A stretch of DNA of 64,000 nucleotides from Candidatus Bipolaricaulis anaerobius (lineage in GTDB: Bacteria; Bipolaricaulota; Bipolaricaulia; Bipolaricaulales; Bipolaricaulaceae), in NCBI RefSeq assembly GCF_900465355.1, contig NZ_LS483254.1:992001-1056000 (forward strand). Direction: 5' to 3'. Below the pieces are notes generated by a model. The model saw nothing but the letters and a program-made list of their open reading frames with translations. It was not told the DNA's origin and ran no database searches. Below, piece by piece: positions 47,365-54,766 of the stretch. The first letter of the stretch is position 1; the number at the start of each line of letters is the position of its first letter. The position numbers were made by a program, and so were the translations under genes.

Positions 47365-50300
47365 TCACATGCCGGGAGCCGCCACGATCTGGAACACAAC
47401 GACGCGGACCACCGTGCTCCCGAGGGAAATCCACAACCGATAGGTCCCGAGCGCGAGGTCAGCGGTAGCGAACTGGAACTGGTAGTTGTCCGTAGGTTCG
47501 ATCCGCTTCCCCACCAACACCCTCTTTCCGAGATCTGGCGTGACCACTGCCCCAGCACCGCCCGCCAACTCATCCGCCGCCGTGAGGACGGCATGGGGGA
47601 GGCACGGGACCGCGCCGCACGCGGCCGGGGCGACCACCGCCACCGTGATCACCTCTCCCCGGCGGACCGTCTGCGGCACCTGCTCCCCGGCGAACCGGAT
47701 CAGGACAGGCTCGTTCGTCGTACGGGCCGTGGCCGCCAAGCACACTGCGGCAGCGTCGAGCCCGTTGATCACGATGTAGTGGTTACCGTCCCAGCTCGTA
47801 TCTAGATCAGGGAGCGAGGGATCCACCCGTTCCATCGTCGCGTACTTCTCCGCCCCGCGCACGCCGTAACCCGCCGCCCACCCATCGCGGTGGGGGTCGT
47901 CGGCGTTGGCGGTGTCTACGATGTTCCCGGCCGGATCGACGAGCTCCAGGATCTCCCCCCGGTCGGCGAGATCGAGGACAAACGGAAGGAACACGAGCTC
48001 AGACGGGAACCAGGTTGGGTCCACGTCAGGATAGGCCCAGAGGAGGAACTGTTCGTTCACCGCCTGCGCGGTACCGACGAGCGGGTTTCCGTTCCGGTCG
48101 GCGCCATGCGTGAGGATGCCTTCGTTGGCGCGCCAGTTCTGTTCCGTGTCCCGCGCGAACGGGTTCACCCTCTCCATCGTCGCGTACGGATGGGCGCCAC
48201 CCACGCCGTAGCCAGTGGCCCACCCGGACCGCCCGAGGCGTTCCGCGTTCGCCGTGTCCACCGCTGTGCCCACCGAATCCACAAGCTCCACGACCTCACC
48301 CTGCGGATCGAGGGGCACGTTGTAGATGAGGTCAGCCGGGATGCCGCGAACCACGTCGTCACTACCCCGCTCGAGGAGGTACGTTGCGTACGGGGCAATC
48401 GTCCCGCGGAGTTCGACCACCTTCCACTCCGGCTCCCCGGCCGTGGCCGGCTGGGTAAGGCGCCAACGGAGGGTCCACCCTGTGAGGTCCACCGCGTTCT
48501 CCGTAATGTTGGTCAGCTCGATCCACTGATCGTTCGGGCTTGCCGCGGTCCCCCCCCACGCGATCTCCGTGATGACGACCGGTCCCGTCTCCTCGTAGAT
48601 GAGGTCGGCCGCGATGTCGCTCACCACGTCATCGGTGCGGCGCTCCATGAGGTAGAACCCGAACTCGTCGATCGCCCCGCGGAGCTCCACGGTTTTCACG
48701 TATTGCTCCATCACGTGCCCCGGCTGCTTGCGGCGCCAGCGGAGGGTCCACCCGGTGAGGTCCAGCGACTCGTCGAATGAGCTATAGAGCTCAACCCATT
48801 CGTGCACCGGATCGGCTTCCGTGCCGCCCCAAGCGACCTCGTTGATCACGATCCGCGGCCCGAGGGCGCCGCCTCCACCGGCGATCTCCTCGCCGCAGTC
48901 CACAACCGTGATCCGAACCGTTCCCACCGCGAACGCGCCGGTAGGGTCGGTGACGGTGTACGTGATGAAGTCGGTCCCCAGGAAATCAAGCTGCGGTGCA
49001 TACACCACGTCCACCGACGCCTCGTGGGGCGCGCTGTACGTGACAGCACTCAGGTTCCCGCTCAGGGCACCGTAGGTCGGGGCCCCCACGATCGCGAGCG
49101 TCAATGGATGCGACGCCGGGGCCGCTGGGTTCACGTTGGGGTCGCTGCCACGCAACGAGAAGGTCAGCGGGGTGTTCTGGCATGTGACGAGGGACAGGCT
49201 CTCCGCGGTGGGGGGCTCGTTATTGCGCACCCAGCTCTTGAGGGCGTCCGGGCCGTTCACTCCACCTGAGCCGGTTGCCCTGCGCAGCACGAGTCCGCCC
49301 ATGGTCACGTCCGCCATCGCCCGAATGACGACACTGCCCTGATTCGACGCAAACACGGTCACCGAGGCCACGCCGCCGCGGGTCGTGGTGGTCGAGGCCG
49401 TGACGAAGGTGGCTCCGGCTGCGTTGTTGAGAAGTGTGAACACGACCGATGTCCCATCGGGGGCGAGCACCCAACCCGCTCCGGTGCTAACCTCCACGAG
49501 CGCGGTCACCGTGTGGTTCGTGCCCACCGGGTTCACCGCCTCAAGCGGAGCAACACCGATCCGGGCGTCGACGTAGGTCTTCTCGGCGTTGTTGCCGCTC
49601 CCGGCCGTGCCCGTGGTGCGGATGACCGTCCGATCGCCGAACACGTCCGCCGCGGCCTGGACGACCACCGTTCCCGGTGCAGAGGAGACGATCTGGACCG
49701 TCGCCTGCCCAGCCCCGTTCGTGACCGCGGTGTTGACCCCACCCACGAAGCTTGCCACCCCGCTTAGGATGGAGAACGTTACCTCGGCCCCTCCTGCCGG
49801 TGACCAGGTGGACCCGTTACTCGACGTCTCCACAGTCGCCACGATCGTGTGGGGATCGCCCACCTCGTTTGAGGCGGACACCGGACTCAGGCTGATCCGA
49901 CCCTGTACATAGGTCTTCTGCGCCGGCATGGTGCTCCCGCCCCGGCCATCCGTCGTCCGTACGACCTGCGTTCCGCCAGGGAACGACATCGTTACCGTCG
50001 GGACCGCCGTGAGAACAGAGGGGACAGCGCTGTTGACCGTCAAGCTCCACGTCGCGCTCATCCCATCCGAGGACACCGTTGGTCCGCTCAGGCTCTGGCT
50101 CCCCGGCGTCGGTACCACAGTGTAGCTGAGAGCCCACGAAATCGGTGCCGCCCCCTGCGCGTGCGCCGCGATCGCGAACGTGTGCGGGGCACCCACTGCA
50201 TTCGTCGCGTGCCCCGGGGTGATCGCGATGTAGCCGCTCACGTACGCCTTCGTCGCCAAACCGGTTGACCCGCCCGAGCCGTTCGTCTCCACGGTAACGC

Positions 50301-53058
50301 CCCCCACTGTCGCCTGGGCCTTCACCGTCACGGTTCCGGGTTGGGTAGCGCCGATCGTCGCCTGGGCCTGGCCCCCGCTGGTCGTGGTGGAGCTCGATCC
50401 CACAAACGTAGCTCCGATCTGGTTTGAGACGAAGCTGAACGTGACCGGCGTGCTATCAGGGGCGGCGATCCAGCCTACTCCCACCACGTACGCCTCGACC
50501 GTGGCCGTGAAGGTGTGGTCGTCGCCGACCTCGTTGGTGTCGGCAAGAGGGCTGAGGCGGATCCGTGCCTGGCGGTACTCGTACGTCTTCTCGGCGTCGG
50601 GGCCGCTTGAGCCGACGCCGGTTTCGGCGACCACCGTTCCAGTGCCGAGGGCGTCGGCCACGGCGTGGACCTTGACCAGACCCGGCGTGATGGCGCGGAT
50701 CGTGACCTGAGCTTGTCCGCCGACAAGGGAGGCGGGGTTCGGGCTCACGATGGTGGCGGAGCCGGTGGTATCCGAGGCGAGGGAGAAGGTGACCGACCCG
50801 CCGTCGGGGGGCACGACCCAACTCGTCCCGTTCCACACCCGCACCGTGGCCGTGATCACATGGTTATCCCCTGCTTCGTTCGTGTCAGAACCCGGGGCAA
50901 GGTCGATCTTCGCCTGGCGGTACGCGTAGGTCTTGGTGGCGGGGGCGCTGTTGGGGGAGATTCCGTTCGTCGTCAGCACCACTTGCGTCCCGCCGGAGAA
51001 CATCATCGTCACCGTGGCCGATGCCGTGAACACGGCCGGGCTGGCGTGGTTGATCGTGAGGTTCCAGGTGGCACCCATCCCATCAACGGCTACTGTGGGC
51101 CCGCTCAGACTCTCACTGGCTGAGGTTGGACTCACCGTGTAGGCCAAGTTCCACCCGCTGGGAGCCGTCCCCTGAGCGTACGCCGTGATCAGGAACGTGT
51201 GGGAGGCCCCCACCTCGTTCACAGCCGACTGCGGCGTGATCGCGACGTAGCCAGCTACCCCTACGTAGTGGCTCGGATCGGTGGCGCTCACCGTCTGCCC
51301 GCTGTACGTCGTCTGCGCGGTTCCCACGTTCGCGTACTGCCCAGCAACGGCCGCCCCTGTCTTGGTCAGCGTCGCGCTCGCTCCCACCCCCAACGTCGGG
51401 ATCGTCCCGATCGTGCCCGCCTTATCGTCGGTGACAGCGATGTTCGTCAGCGTCACGTTCCCCGTGTTCGTCACTTCGTACGTCCAGGTGATCGTCGACC
51501 CCACCACCACCACCGGACCAGTCGGACCATCGGCGTCTTGCCCGTTCGTCCTCTTCTCAAGCGAGAGGCTCGGGGCCTGCGTGGCCGTGATCGTCTCATC
51601 GTCTTGCCCCGTTACGTTCGGCCCCGTGGGCGGTGTCCCGGTGGCGGTTGCCACGTTGGCAACGGTTCCCGCATCGAGATCGGACTGGCTGATCGTGTAG
51701 GCGGCCTGCGCCGTCCCTATCTGCCCTGGCCCCAGCGTCGCCGGCGTCACAACGAGGTTCGCGACCCCTAGTCGCACATCGTCGATCTTCACGCTCGTGA
51801 GCGTCACGTTCCCCGTGTTCGTCACCGCGAACGTGTACGTGATCCCTTGTCCTACCGCGCTGTACGTCTTCGGGCTCGCGCTCTTCACCACCGCCAGCGC
51901 CGGCGCCGCCACCAACGTCTGGGTGTCATCGTCGGTGTCGCTCACGTTCGATCCCACCGGCGGCGTCCCGGTCGCTGTCGCTACGTTCGTGAACGTCCCC
52001 GCGTCGATGTCCGCTTGCGTAAGGGTGTAGCTGCCGCTGAATGTTGTCGTGTCCGTAGCCCCCGCCGCCAGCGATGCGATCGGCCCACCCGTCACCGTGA
52101 CCTTCGAGTCCGTCACGACCACGTTCGTCAACGTCACGTTCCCCGTGTTCGTCACCGCGAACGTGTAGCTAATCGTATCTCCCGCGTCCGCTCGCCCGTT
52201 ACTCCCTAAGTTCAGCGTCCCGCTCTTCGCAAGCCCGATCGAGGGCTGCGCTCCGTAGTAGTGGCTCGGATCGGTGGCGGTGACCGTCTGCCCGCTGTAC
52301 GTCGTCTCGGCCTTCCCTACGTTACTGTACTGCCCAGCAACGGCCGCCCCTGTCTTGGTCAGCGTCGCGCTCGCTCCCACCCCCAACGTCGGGATCGTCC
52401 CGATCGTGCCCGCCTTATCGTCGGTGACAGCGATGTTCGTCAGCGTCACGTTCCCCGTGTTCGTCACTTCGTACGTCCACGTCACCGTCGACCCCACCAC
52501 CACCACCGGACCAGTCGGACCATCGGCGTCTTGCCCGTTCGTCCTCTTCTCGAGCGAGAGGCTCGGCTGCGCGGGAGGGGGGCATGCTGGTCCCTCGACT
52601 TGGTAGTCGCACTTCTCCTGCCCAGCCTTGACAGCGACCTGGGTGCGCCCAGTGGGCCAGTACCCCCGCAGCGTGACCCAGTAATCCCGGCATTCCCTGT
52701 CGCTGAACCCCTGATCGAACTTCACCCCGAAGATCCCCGTCGTGGGATCTCTATTGCACTCGTACTTGTGGCTTGTCGCGACCACATCCTTGCACGTAGC
52801 ACAGCTATCGGGAAGCTCCAGGACCCAATGGCTGATCGCAGGAGAGTCACTGGAGCACACGCGGTAGCTAAACGTGGTGTTCGCCCCGTCGAACGTGGCC
52901 CCGAGGAGCGTCACCGTATACTTGGAGCAGTCACAGGCCGAGGATGAGACCGAACTCCCTGCACTCAGCAACACGACGAGCAGGAGAGGGAAAAGCGCTC
53001 TTCCTGTCTGTCGAATCCACGAATTTTCCGTCCTGCCACTCCCAAACAACCTAGCCAT
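47365..53058 (-). CDS. Giant secreted repeat protein (DUF11, Ig-like and lamin-tail domains)
   Basis: 1897 residues. After a charged n-region and hydrophobic signal (about 20-40), residues 41-160 form a cysteine-rich domain (nine or more Cys). Four DUF11-type repeats follow (about 165-268, 272-385, 386-493, 496-598; VTNTGNVTLTN in each), then six bacterial Ig-like repeats to about 1240 (pattern xNEVGxxHTFxxTV), one cadherin-like segment (EPPTAESLSLVTCQ), and two lamin-tail-like domains (INEVAWGG...LTGWTLRW). There is no LPXTG, no membrane anchor and no autotransporter barrel. It is probably a surface or matrix adhesin/fibre. Its 5' leader holds a c-di-GMP-I riboswitch. The Shine-Dalgarno is GGGAGGGAGGG. 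Confidence 0.9.
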   Translation of the reverse strand: MARLFGSGRTENSWIRQTGRALFPLLLVVLLSAGSSVSSSACDCSKYTVTLLGATFDGANTTFSYRVCSSDSPAISHWVLELPDSCATCKDVVATSHKYECNRDPTTGIFGVKFDQGFSDRECRDYWVTLRGYWPTGRTQVAVKAGQEKCDYQVEGPACPPPAQPSLSLEKRTNGQDADGPTGPVVVVGSTVTWTYEVTNTGNVTLTNIAVTDDKAGTIGTIPTLGVGASATLTKTGAAVAGQYSNVGKAETTYSGQTVTATDPSHYYGAQPSIGLAKSGTLNLGSNGRADAGDTISYTFAVTNTGNVTLTNVVVTDSKVTVTGGPIASLAAGATDTTTFSGSYTLTQADIDAGTFTNVATATGTPPVGSNVSDTDDDTQTLVAAPALAVVKSASPKTYSAVGQGITYTFAVTNTGNVTLTSVKIDDVRLGVANLVVTPATLGPGQIGTAQAAYTISQSDLDAGTVANVATATGTPPTGPNVTGQDDETITATQAPSLSLEKRTNGQDADGPTGPVVVVGSTITWTYEVTNTGNVTLTNIAVTDDKAGTIGTIPTLGVGASATLTKTGAAVAGQYANVGTAQTTYSGQTVSATDPSHYVGVAGYVAITPQSAVNEVGASHTFLITAYAQGTAPSGWNLAYTVSPTSASESLSGPTVAVDGMGATWNLTINHASPAVFTASATVTMMFSGGTQVVLTTNGISPNSAPATKTYAYRQAKIDLAPGSDTNEAGDNHVITATVRVWNGTSWVVPPDGGSVTFSLASDTTGSATIVSPNPASLVGGQAQVTIRAITPGLVKVHAVADALGTGTVVAETGVGSSGPDAEKTYEYRQARIRLSPLADTNEVGDDHTFTATVEAYVVGVGWIAAPDSTPVTFSFVSNQIGATFVGSSSTTTSGGQAQATIGATQPGTVTVKAQATVGGVTVETNGSGGSTGLATKAYVSGYIAITPGHATNAVGAPHTFAIAAHAQGAAPISWALSYTVVPTPGSQSLSGPTVSSDGMSATWSLTVNSAVPSVLTAVPTVTMSFPGGTQVVRTTDGRGGSTMPAQKTYVQGRISLSPVSASNEVGDPHTIVATVETSSNGSTWSPAGGAEVTFSILSGVASFVGGVNTAVTNGAGQATVQIVSSAPGTVVVQAAADVFGDRTVIRTTGTAGSGNNAEKTYVDARIGVAPLEAVNPVGTNHTVTALVEVSTGAGWVLAPDGTSVVFTLLNNAAGATFVTASTTTTRGGVASVTVFASNQGSVVIRAMADVTMGGLVLRRATGSGGVNGPDALKSWVRNNEPPTAESLSLVTCQNTPLTFSLRGSDPNVNPAAPASHPLTLAIVGAPTYGALSGNLSAVTYSAPHEASVDVVYAPQLDFLGTDFITYTVTDPTGAFAVGTVRITVVDCGEEIAGGGGALGPRIVINEVAWGGTEADPVHEWVELYSSFDESLDLTGWTLRWRRKQPGHVMEQYVKTVELRGAIDEFGFYLMERRTDDVVSDIAADLIYEETGPVVITEIAWGGTAASPNDQWIELTNITENAVDLTGWTLRWRLTQPATAGEPEWKVVELRGTIAPYATYLLERGSDDVVRGIPADLIYNVPLDPQGEVVELVDSVGTAVDTANAERLGRSGWATGYGVGGAHPYATMERVNPFARDTEQNWRANEGILTHGADRNGNPLVGTAQAVNEQFLLWAYPDVDPTWFPSELVFLPFVLDLADRGEILELVDPAGNIVDTANADDPHRDGWAAGYGVRGAEKYATMERVDPSLPDLDTSWDGNHYIVINGLDAAAVCLAATARTTNEPVLIRFAGEQVPQTVRRGEVITVAVVAPAACGAVPCLPHAVLTAADELAGGAGAVVTPDLGKRVLVGKRIEPTDNYQFQFATADLALGTYRLWISLGSTVVRVVVFQIVAAPGM
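51265..51573 (-). repeat. ~309-bp direct repeat, copy 2, inside the giant gene
   Basis: Near-identical to 52258-52566; the two copies are the same length and encode DUF11 repeats 4 and 1 of the giant protein. High nucleotide identity, including synonymous positions, points to recent duplication or gene conversion between repeats. Confidence 0.88.
52258..52566 (-). repeat. ~309-bp direct repeat, copy 1, inside the giant gene
   Basis: Partner of 51265-51573. It encodes the first DUF11 repeat, around residues 166-268. The intervening repeats 2 and 3 are diverged in sequence. Confidence 0.88.
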
Positions 53059-53080
53059 GGTTCCCTCCCTCCCAGCTTGC

Positions 53081-53160
53081 GCTTCGGCAGCCTGGCGGCC
53101 TCAAGGAGGTCCATGGCTTTGCGCCCCCGGATCGCTCCAGGTTTACCTTTTCGGCAGACG
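53081..53160 (-). promoter_or_regulatory. c-di-GMP-I (GEMM-I) riboswitch A, in front of the giant gene
   Basis: Minus strand reads AAAAGGTAAACC, then CCGGGGGCGCAAAGCC, a variable hairpin, and AGGCTGCCGAA, the order and conserved blocks of GEMM-I. The segment 53105-53117 (GCCATGGACCTCC) is complementary to GGAGG-GAA-CCATGGC (53054-53068), which contains the Shine-Dalgarno and start codon: 7 + 5 base pairs with a small bulge. When the aptamer folds around ligand, that segment is occupied and the start would be free, so ligand should switch translation on. The aptamer begins about 28 nt after the preceding RHH gene and lacks a strong own promoter. Confidence 0.85.
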
Positions 53161-53187: not shown

Positions 53188-53415
53188 CTAACTTCGGTTG
53201 AACCGGCCCTGGACAACCAGGGCCCGCTTCACGGTCTCGTCGCGGACCAAACCCTTCTCAACGAGGATCTCCCCTAGACGTTTCCCACGCTCGAAGTGCT
53301 CCTCGAGGATGGACATGATCACTGCAGACCGAGACTTGCGCTCCCGTTCGGCCAGCTCGTCCACCAGTTCCAGGAGGTACTGGTCCTCTTCGTTGTAGTA
53401 CAACGTTACCTGCAC
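53188..53415 (-). CDS. Ribbon-helix-helix protein with one MshEN-type c-di-GMP-binding motif
   Basis: 75 residues from a GTG at 53415, 8 nt after AAGGAGG. Residues 1-45 fit a ribbon-helix-helix DNA-binding fold: a short strand (MQVTLYY), a first helix (EEDQYLLELVDELAERER) and a second helix after KSRSA (VIMSILEEHFE). The C-terminal RLGEILVEKGLV, with ETVKRALVVQ after it, matches the 24-residue MshEN pattern RLGxxLVxxGLVxxxxLxxxLxxQ residue for residue; that motif binds c-di-GMP in MshE-type ATPases, usually as two tandem copies. As RHH proteins dimerise, two chains could supply the pair. Its own mRNA starts with a c-di-GMP riboswitch. DNA target unknown. Confidence 0.78.
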   Translation of the reverse strand: MQVTLYYNEEDQYLLELVDELAERERKSRSAVIMSILEEHFERGKRLGEILVEKGLVRDETVKRALVVQGRFNRS

Positions 53416-53449: not shown

Positions 53450-53487
53450 AAAAAAGGGCTCCAGGTGGTTTGCCCTCCTGGCAGCCC
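53450..53487 (-). terminator. Intrinsic terminator of riboswitch B
   Basis: On the minus strand GGGCT-G-CCAGG pairs with CCTGG-AGCCC over an 11-nt loop, followed directly by TTTTTT (53450-53455). The 5' strand (GGGCTGCCAGG) is also the conserved 3' end of the aptamer, so terminator and ligand-bound aptamer exclude each other: an ON switch for the RHH gene. Confidence 0.87.
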
Positions 53488-53553
53488 GACTACCCGTCCT
53501 GGGTTCGTAGCTTTGCGCCCCCACGTTCCCGTGGGTTTGCCCTTTTCAGGCTC
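53476..53553 (-). promoter_or_regulatory. c-di-GMP-I (GEMM-I) riboswitch B, in front of the RHH gene
   Basis: Minus strand: CCTGAAAAGGGCAAACC, a GNRA-like capped hairpin (CCACGGGAACGTGG), GGGCGCAAAGC, a second arm, and GGGCTGCCAGG. CCTG (53547-53550) can pair with CAGG (53477-53480) as the closing stem. It lies between a strong promoter and the terminator that shares its 3' strand. Confidence 0.9.
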
Positions 53554-53570: not shown

Positions 53571-53599
53571 ACTGTAAGCCGGCCGGCGTTCCTTGTCAA
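53571..53599 (-). promoter_or_regulatory. Promoter of the RHH gene and riboswitch B
   Basis: TTGACA (53594-53599, perfect -35) and TACAGT (53571-53576) with a 17-bp spacer containing the palindrome GCCGGCCGGC. Transcription should start near 53564, about 11 nt before the aptamer. Confidence 0.87.
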
Positions 53600-53618: not shown

Positions 53619-54689
53619 CTACCGGCCCGCGGCCGACGCGGTCGCCACCGCCGCACCCGCATCCACGAGCCCAGCGCCGAACCGCGGATCGCACCCCTCG
53701 GCAAGAGGGGTGGAGCTCTCAAGGAGGATATCCACCGCCTCGGACGCCGTGAGCGAAGGATCGGCGGAGAGGATGAGAGCAATGGTTCCGGCGACGTGGG
53801 GCGCCGCGAACGAAGTCCCCGAGTTCCGGGCGGCGCGACCTCCGGGGAGGAGGGAGGCCACTTCGTGCCCCGGTGCGGCCACCGCTACCTCCGGTCCCCA
53901 CGAGCTGAACGGAGCCAGGCCGTCCGTCGCGTCGGTGGCCGATACCGCGAGCACGGTCGGGTATTTGCCCGGATACAGGACTTCGGGGTTCGCCTCGTTC
54001 CCAGCAATCCCCACCACGACCACACCCTGGGCCGCGGCATAGGAGAGAGCCCGTTCGACGACCGCGGGGGGAATGCCCCTGGCGTACAGGCTGAGGTTGA
54101 TGATCCGAGCGCCGTTATCCACCGCATACCGAATGGCCTCCGCCAACCGATCCCAGTCCCTCGTCAAGAAGAGCCCGCGCGAGTCGAGGAACCGCACGTC
54201 CATGATCCGCACGGTAGGGGCCACGCCCGCCGCTCCCTCCACCCCCGCTCGGGCGGCGATGATCCCAGCGACACAGGTTCCATGCCAGTAAAGCGGCGTG
54301 CGCCGGCGATCTGCCGGTACCCCATCGCGAAAATCCCACCCGAAGACATCATCCACATACCCGTTCCCATCGTCATCGATGCCGTTCGTGGGGATCTCGT
54401 GAGGGTTCGTCCACCGCACCGCGGCGAGCTCGGGGACCGTCCAGTCAATGCCGCTATCGATCACGGCGACGACGATCTCCGGGCTCCCCATTGTGACCTG
54501 CCACGCTGCGGGAACACGGATTCGCTCCAGGCCCCAGGGCAGGTTCGCCGTCACCGGGCTCGGGGAGCCCGCCGTCCCTGCCCCGCCAGCGATGTCCGGG
54601 CCATCAAGGGTGGGTGTGGCCAGGAAGAGGAAGAACAACCCCAGGCCGGTCCCTACCCACCGCCACCGCACGTGTCGTCTGCGTTCCAT
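53619..54689 (-). CDS. Secreted subtilisin-like serine protease (family S8)
   Basis: 356 residues. A signal sequence (basic MERRRHVRWRW then hydrophobic residues 12-25) is followed, without an obvious prodomain, by the S8 fold. The triad is Asp78 (AVIDSGIDW), His136 (YWHGTCVAG) and Ser293 (NSGTSFAAPHVAG), with oxyanion Asn231 (GIAGNEANP). A DDDGNGYVDD loop (about 105-114) should bind calcium. It ends without a sorting signal. The start codon lies at the very end of a c-di-GMP-I aptamer and no separate Shine-Dalgarno is seen. It is upstream of the RHH and giant genes on the same strand. Confidence 0.93.
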   Translation of the reverse strand: MERRRHVRWRWVGTGLGLFFLFLATPTLDGPDIAGGAGTAGSPSPVTANLPWGLERIRVPAAWQVTMGSPEIVVAVIDSGIDWTVPELAAVRWTNPHEIPTNGIDDDGNGYVDDVFGWDFRDGVPADRRRTPLYWHGTCVAGIIAARAGVEGAAGVAPTVRIMDVRFLDSRGLFLTRDWDRLAEAIRYAVDNGARIINLSLYARGIPPAVVERALSYAAAQGVVVVGIAGNEANPEVLYPGKYPTVLAVSATDATDGLAPFSSWGPEVAVAAPGHEVASLLPGGRAARNSGTSFAAPHVAGTIALILSADPSLTASEAVDILLESSTPLAEGCDPRFGAGLVDAGAAVATASAAGR

Positions 54690-54766
54690 TCGGCAACCCG
54701 GCTGTCCTCATGGGACCCGTGGCTTTGCGTCCCCCCCTCGCGAGGGGTTTGCCCTTGTCGTGGCCC
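54690..54766 (-). promoter_or_regulatory. c-di-GMP-I (GEMM-I) riboswitch C, in front of the protease gene
   Basis: The best match of the three: CGACAAGGGCAAACC, hairpin CCTCGCGAGG, GGGGACGCAAAGCCACGGGT, a variable arm, and ACAGCCGGGTTGCCGA. The protease ATG (54687-54689) follows that last A directly. No terminator is seen, so control is probably translational. Confidence 0.92.

Follow-up and report, generated by a model that had tools for sequence, protein, structure and literature searches.

A class I c-di-GMP aptamer whose P3 strand is complementary to the downstream Shine-Dalgarno sequence and start codon: a predicted translational ON switch in Candidatus Bipolaricaulis anaerobius

The minus strand of a 64,000-nucleotide stretch of Candidatus Bipolaricaulis anaerobius DNA (contig NZ_LS483254.1, positions 992,001 to 1,056,000; hereafter the window) contains a c-di-GMP-type aptamer, riboswitch A, that ends only ~25 nucleotides before the start codon of a very long gene. 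A scan found no terminator for riboswitch A. The elements of the locus are as follows, in coordinates of the window.

53082 to 53156, minus strand: riboswitch A, a c-di-GMP class I aptamer with a weak P1 (Rfam c-di-GMP-I-GGC match)
53105 to 53117, minus strand: anti-Shine-Dalgarno/anti-AUG strand, consisting of the P3 5′ strand and apical loop, GCCATGGACCTCC (read from sequence, folding and alignment)
53064 to 53068, minus strand: Shine-Dalgarno GGAGG, paired in the predicted OFF fold (sequence, folding)
53073 to 53068, minus strand: second GGGAGG, overlapping the Shine-Dalgarno (sequence)
53054 to 53060, minus strand: CCATGGC, the start codon ATG (53058-53056) with its paired flanks (sequence, folding, alignment)
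47365 to 53058, minus strand: the putatively regulated gene, encoding a 1897-aa secreted-type repeat protein with DUF7507/DUF11 repeats and lamin-tail domains

Read on the minus strand, GCCATGGACCTCC (53117-53105) complements 53068-53054 (GGAGG-GAA-CCATGGC) through 12 base pairs that cover both the Shine-Dalgarno and the AUG. The duplex has seven pairs across the AUG and five across the Shine-Dalgarno, separated by a 1x3 internal loop, and its computed energy is -21.2 kcal/mol. An earlier sequence-only reading had described this aptamer segment and this start region, pairing over 7 bp through the start codon and 5 bp through the Shine-Dalgarno; the minus-strand readout returned exactly those positions and letters and reproduced both helices. 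Because the P3 strand is complementary to the ribosome binding site and start codon, the RNA has two alternatives, folding into the sensor or masking the start.

The best Rfam model for aptamer A is RF03167 (c-di-GMP-I-GGC), which it matches with 59.8 bits (gathering score 59); it also matches RF01051 at 55.2 bits (threshold 35). The bases of the Vibrio cholerae riboswitch Vc2 that contact the ligand include G20 and A47 (PMC4744006), and aptamer A has a G at model position 10, an A at 37 and a C at 75, which by our inferred mapping correspond to Vc2 G20, A47 and C92. We take the ‘GGC’ of the family name to denote a G at the A47-equivalent position. Since aptamers A, B and C of the window all carry an A next to the ligand where the c-di-GMP-I-GGC consensus has G, we read them, by contact bases and on our own mapping, as ordinary c-di-GMP aptamers. 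The genome encodes three GGDEF domains, and we infer that c-di-GMP is the ligand of riboswitch A. Only about two adjacent pairs of its P1 are recognisable. Because loss of P1 is reported to abolish ligand binding by Vc2, this very weak helix counts against the ligand-controlled switch that we favour below; the Cd1 aptamer is reported to bind its ligand without a detectable P1 (both PMC9262584).

The A element occurs in 14 related genomes, nine of them in the same genus (g1), two in g5, one in g6 and two in g11. Unconstrained folding produced the duplex between the anti-start strand and the start region in 12 of the 14 orthologues, comprising all those from g1, g5 and g6, with a mean of 12.0 pairs. 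Across the unconstrained ensembles of these 12 leaders the Shine-Dalgarno was unpaired at 0.03 and the AUG at 0.01, and when the aptamer was enforced these values rose to 0.62 and 0.61. The same result was obtained in the model at 37, 50, 60 and 70 °C. The competition between aptamer folding and start sequestration claimed in the sequence-only reading, which had proposed folding the leader with and without aptamer constraints, was therefore recovered computationally, with the Shine-Dalgarno and AUG passing from ~3% and ~1% unpaired to ~60% each; in 12 of 14 orthologues the ligand-free fold is predicted to hide both elements and the aptamer fold to expose them. This exposure speaks against riboswitch A being an OFF switch, the type of translational control described for Vc2 (PMC9262584). 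A related proposal, that the AUG inside P3 (53114-53112) opens a regulatory upstream reading frame, draws on the ATGG contained in aptamer A; however, both the frame and the length of such a reading frame vary among orthologues, from 4 to over 40 codons, and the P3 ATG is a GTG in g11. The upstream reading frame was rejected as a candidate because neither its frame nor its length is conserved, and we consider control by either of these routes highly improbable.

The two orthologues that behave differently, G021 and G027, are those of g11. They form no pairs between the anti-start strand and the start, which instead folds into a local CATGG/CCATG hairpin with the Shine-Dalgarno in its loop. The A-type aptamers of g11 (L241, L244) contain GCCGTGG, and the 3′ strand of their P1, GCCGAAGCG, is complementary to early codons. 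Their sequences suggest that g11 possibly combines the same aptamer with a different expression platform.

As a property of one sequence, the complementarity is only moderately unusual (at the few-percent level, about 1-5%), because any strong start with GGAGG and ATG supplies eight of the 12 paired bases. A null set was drawn from some 460 kb of this genome, comprising the window and 20 stretches of 20 kb, with a rough start finder that admits some false starts. It contained 197 other predicted starts, of which 5 paired with the A strand as well as the native start or better; among those with GGAGG the figure was 5 of 97. Random start regions that kept GGAGG and ATG reached the native energy in 1.3% of cases. 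When the 97 other GGAGG starts were grafted behind aptamer A they formed a mean of 4.1 pairs with the anti-start strand; three equalled the native 12, and none (0/97) matched the native gain in accessibility. The start of a groEL-like gene in the same genome carries an identical GGAGGGAACCATGGC.

Conservation in relatives indicates that the complementarity is more than chance. The A-type aptamer strand reads GCCATGG[A/G]CCTCC in the relatives and GCCGTGGGCCTCC in g11, and the aptamer core and conserved loops are kept in all A orthologues. On the other side of the duplex, the spacer from aptamer A to the Shine-Dalgarno is of variable length and the downstream gene diverges over its first ~40 codons, yet the protein is homologous in most of the genomes tested; what persists is GGAGG, together with the CC preceding the ATG and the G following it. 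The orthologues were aligned in 13 rows, G016 being omitted because its start spacing differs; 12 of the rows are distinct, and G002 and G008 are identical at A. Standard pairs occupied 98.6% of the pair cells, against 24-54% in slid registers. Four pairs vary across the rows, and unpaired cells are confined to the outermost pair in two g11 rows; with the exception of the outermost pair in two rows, the changes are one-sided and preserve pairing by wobble. The 13-row alignment contained no two-sided compensatory change, and a shuffle control gave no support beyond the conserved columns because the columns vary on one side only. The U at aptamer column 19 is matched to the initial base of the start codon in all 12 distinct rows, whereas the base opposite it in P3 is an A in eight rows, a G (wobble) in two (g5) and a C in two (g11). 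That this U is constant although its P3 partner varies hints that its conservation may reflect pairing with the start and not with P3. The Shine-Dalgarno and AUG are conserved in any case, which counts against reading the conservation of A as a pairing constraint, and the 12 folding orthologues share ancestry and are not independent, so that their number overstates independence. Loss of the pairing in relatives, an outcome that the sequence-only reading had said would count against it, was not seen in three genera, though two genomes of a fourth lose the predicted fold. Its retention suggests a switch that allows the protein to be made in the presence of the signal.

Other aptamers of the class mostly lack such pairing with a start. 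In 77 class members, none of them A-type, that have a candidate start close by, the P3:start duplex averaged -10.5 kcal/mol and four reached -18 kcal/mol, whereas all 11 A-type duplexes examined lay at or below -18.9 kcal/mol. The strongest non-A case is L018, an aptamer of G023, in which the P3 5′ strand forms a duplex of -25.0 kcal/mol with a downstream GTG-containing stretch, GGAAGGGTTCGTGGC; this pairing falls mainly inside the apparent early coding region and perhaps involves early codons instead of a start.

The anti-start strand itself is not peculiar to this locus. An identical P3 strand is found in Sphaerobacter aptamers and one differing by a single base in a Gemmataceae aptamer, neither beside a matching start, and three Sphaerobacter leaders with the same P3 strand formed 0.0 anti-start pairs on folding. 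Other matches to the P3 pattern outside riboswitches mostly look like coding sequence. Its presence in other phyla marks the strand as an existing aptamer subtype and led us to reject an anti-start strand added as a module; the part that evolved would be a start region imitating the P3 partner, together with its retention. The same distribution favours the view that the complementarity is incidental, a strong Shine-Dalgarno and CCATGG start matching an existing subtype by luck while A regulates in some other way or not at all, and so do the groEL-like gene preceded by the same GGAGGGAACCATGGC and the 3 of 97 unrelated starts that do equally well. However, 12 of 14 orthologues in three genera have kept the pairing despite divergent spacers and N-terminal codons, the changes that did occur preserve it, and the other aptamer-start pairs of the class are mostly unpaired. 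We therefore regard a lucky match as unlikely.

Under what circumstances could a ligand influence the choice between the two folds? When neither ligand nor tertiary contacts are modelled, the sequestered state is favoured over the aptamer by 8-22 kcal/mol, so that the ligand most likely decides during transcription. Stepwise lengthening of the leader from the window showed P3 dominant until the Shine-Dalgarno was made, after which it yielded; in three relatives the aptamer was not dominant even before the Shine-Dalgarno. On these calculations the ligand could act only during a short interval of transcription, if at all. The size of the energy gap, the weak P1 and the ~25 nucleotides from aptamer to start codon would suit a duplex that serves as a largely ligand-independent brake, with expression set by translation of the upstream gene, by a helicase or by temperature. 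The retention of the aptamer core and conserved loops in all orthologues speaks against such a brake, and the dominance of P3 in the window sequence up to transcription of the Shine-Dalgarno leaves time for a ligand. A thermometer was rejected because in the model the duplex still forms at 70 °C, and overall we judge ligand-independent braking improbable.

Riboswitch A is preceded by a second aptamer, and their relationship depends on the following elements.

53476 to 53550, minus strand: aptamer of riboswitch B, probably on the same transcript as A
53450 to 53487, minus strand: terminator of B, formed from the aptamer’s P3 3′ strand, GGGCTGCCAGG ... CCTGGAGCCC TTTTTT
53571 to 53599, minus strand: promoter-like TTGACA-17-TACAGT upstream of B
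53188 to 53415, minus strand: ribbon-helix-helix (RHH) gene lying between the two riboswitches, 75 aa, with GTG as start codon

The promoter-like site upstream of B has an equivalent in 9 of 9 orthologues, and in the same number the B terminator reuses the P3 3′ strand of the aptamer, with differing downstream partners. Because its terminator is built from this strand, riboswitch B is predicted to be an antitermination-type ON switch, in agreement with the ON logic that the sequence-only reading had assigned to both riboswitches. A scan detected no promoter-like site before A, which begins 31 nucleotides after the RHH stop codon, and A is therefore probably co-transcribed with B; if so, a single mRNA would sense c-di-GMP at two points. 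The same succession, C aptamer, B aptamer, RHH gene, A aptamer and long gene, is found again elsewhere in the genus and in g5.

The RHH protein of a relative matched an NCBI MshE-related c-di-GMP-binding domain at 56.2 bits (cut-off 38) and has two motifs; the copy in the window scored 30.3 bits against the same domain, with one motif left and a length of 75 rather than ~105 aa. PDB matches of the RHH protein include PilF c-di-GMP-binding domains, and 71 of 100 genomes from the class contain matches to it. These similarities make it a possible c-di-GMP-binding transcription regulator.

Further aptamers of this type were observed. Riboswitch C (54688-54762, minus strand) precedes a subtilase gene and has a promoter-like TTGACG-17-TATATT upstream (54825-54797); in 11 of 11 orthologues viewed the end of the aptamer runs into the subtilase ATG (54689-54687), and there is no clear Shine-Dalgarno. 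A second pair of c-di-GMP-I aptamers lies beyond the window, ~32 kb away in this genome (G000:C1:1078900-1078975 and 1079609-1079687, plus strand) and recurs in the genus. At nine loci in relatives (L009, L028, L033, L119, L120, L141, L160, L165 and L168) two c-di-GMP-I-like aptamer cores are very close, the second starting where the 3′ strand of the first’s P3 would be expected.

The account that best fits these observations, to which we assign a probability of roughly 70%, is that the class I c-di-GMP aptamer of riboswitch A switches translation ON through P3 strand exchange, within an operon that starts from B. In the ligand-free state, the start region (GGAGG...CCAUGGC), being similar to the aptamer’s P3 3′ strand, would displace that strand and pair with the P3 5′ strand, burying the Shine-Dalgarno and AUG. 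Binding of c-di-GMP while the leader is being transcribed would keep P3 closed and leave the start open, so that P3, not P1, would be the exchanged helix. Sequence and computation show the complementarity and its conservation, the mutually exclusive folds, and the promoter and terminator patterns of B; the ligand, a decision made co-transcriptionally, the direction of the response and the operon are predictions. On an mRNA starting at B, production of the long surface protein would be checked at transcription and then at translation. A more elaborate proposal, to which we give somewhat less than an even chance, is a layered c-di-GMP programme on one mRNA, in which B gates transcription, the first gene encodes an RHH regulator with (in relatives) an MshE-type domain, and A gates translation of the giant surface protein through P3 and not P1.

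Several known systems share parts of this design. The adenine riboswitch of Vibrio vulnificus add is a translational ON switch whose ligand-free RNA hides the Shine-Dalgarno and AUG, the logic predicted for A, but it has a different aptamer and ligand, and its exchanged strand belongs to P1 instead of P3. Vc2 is, like A by prediction, a class I c-di-GMP aptamer acting at translation; unlike A, it is described as an OFF switch governed by P1 (PMC9262584), whereas A is predicted to be an ON switch that exchanges P3 and has a very weak P1. The pilM c-GAMP riboswitch is described as an ON switch that works through a terminator and recruits one aptamer strand into its OFF structure (PMC9262584), so that its aptamer and OFF fold are mutually exclusive as in A; riboswitch B resembles it, but A has no detected terminator and would instead hide the Shine-Dalgarno and AUG. 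The arrangement proposed for B and A, two riboswitches answering one ligand first at transcription and then at translation, has a counterpart in the SAM-II/SAM-V bi-mechanism tandem (PMC9481103), although SAM-II and SAM-V are adjacent in one leader whereas B and A would both be c-di-GMP-I riboswitches and are separated by a gene. In the sections of that tandem-riboswitch review considered here, bi-mechanism pairs are described for SAM only, alongside many c-di-GMP-I doublets (PMC9481103).

Targeted searches of the open-access literature found no class I c-di-GMP switch using a P3 strand as anti-Shine-Dalgarno, and no riboswitch papers on the phylum Bipolaricaulota were found in the open-access literature searched. 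If true, the layered programme would be the first bi-mechanism c-di-GMP-I pair in that literature, and would provide a class I c-di-GMP switch with P3 as the communicating helix, where Vc2, the best-studied member, communicates through P1. Riboswitch A would also illustrate how a nearly P1-less aptamer, with a P3 strand doubling as anti-Shine-Dalgarno and anti-AUG, can give rise to an expression platform without extra sequence, since such a platform requires only that the start region resemble the P3 3′ strand. For this small-genome Bipolaricaulota bacterium, the arrangement suggests that c-di-GMP may control a surface protein at two successive steps.
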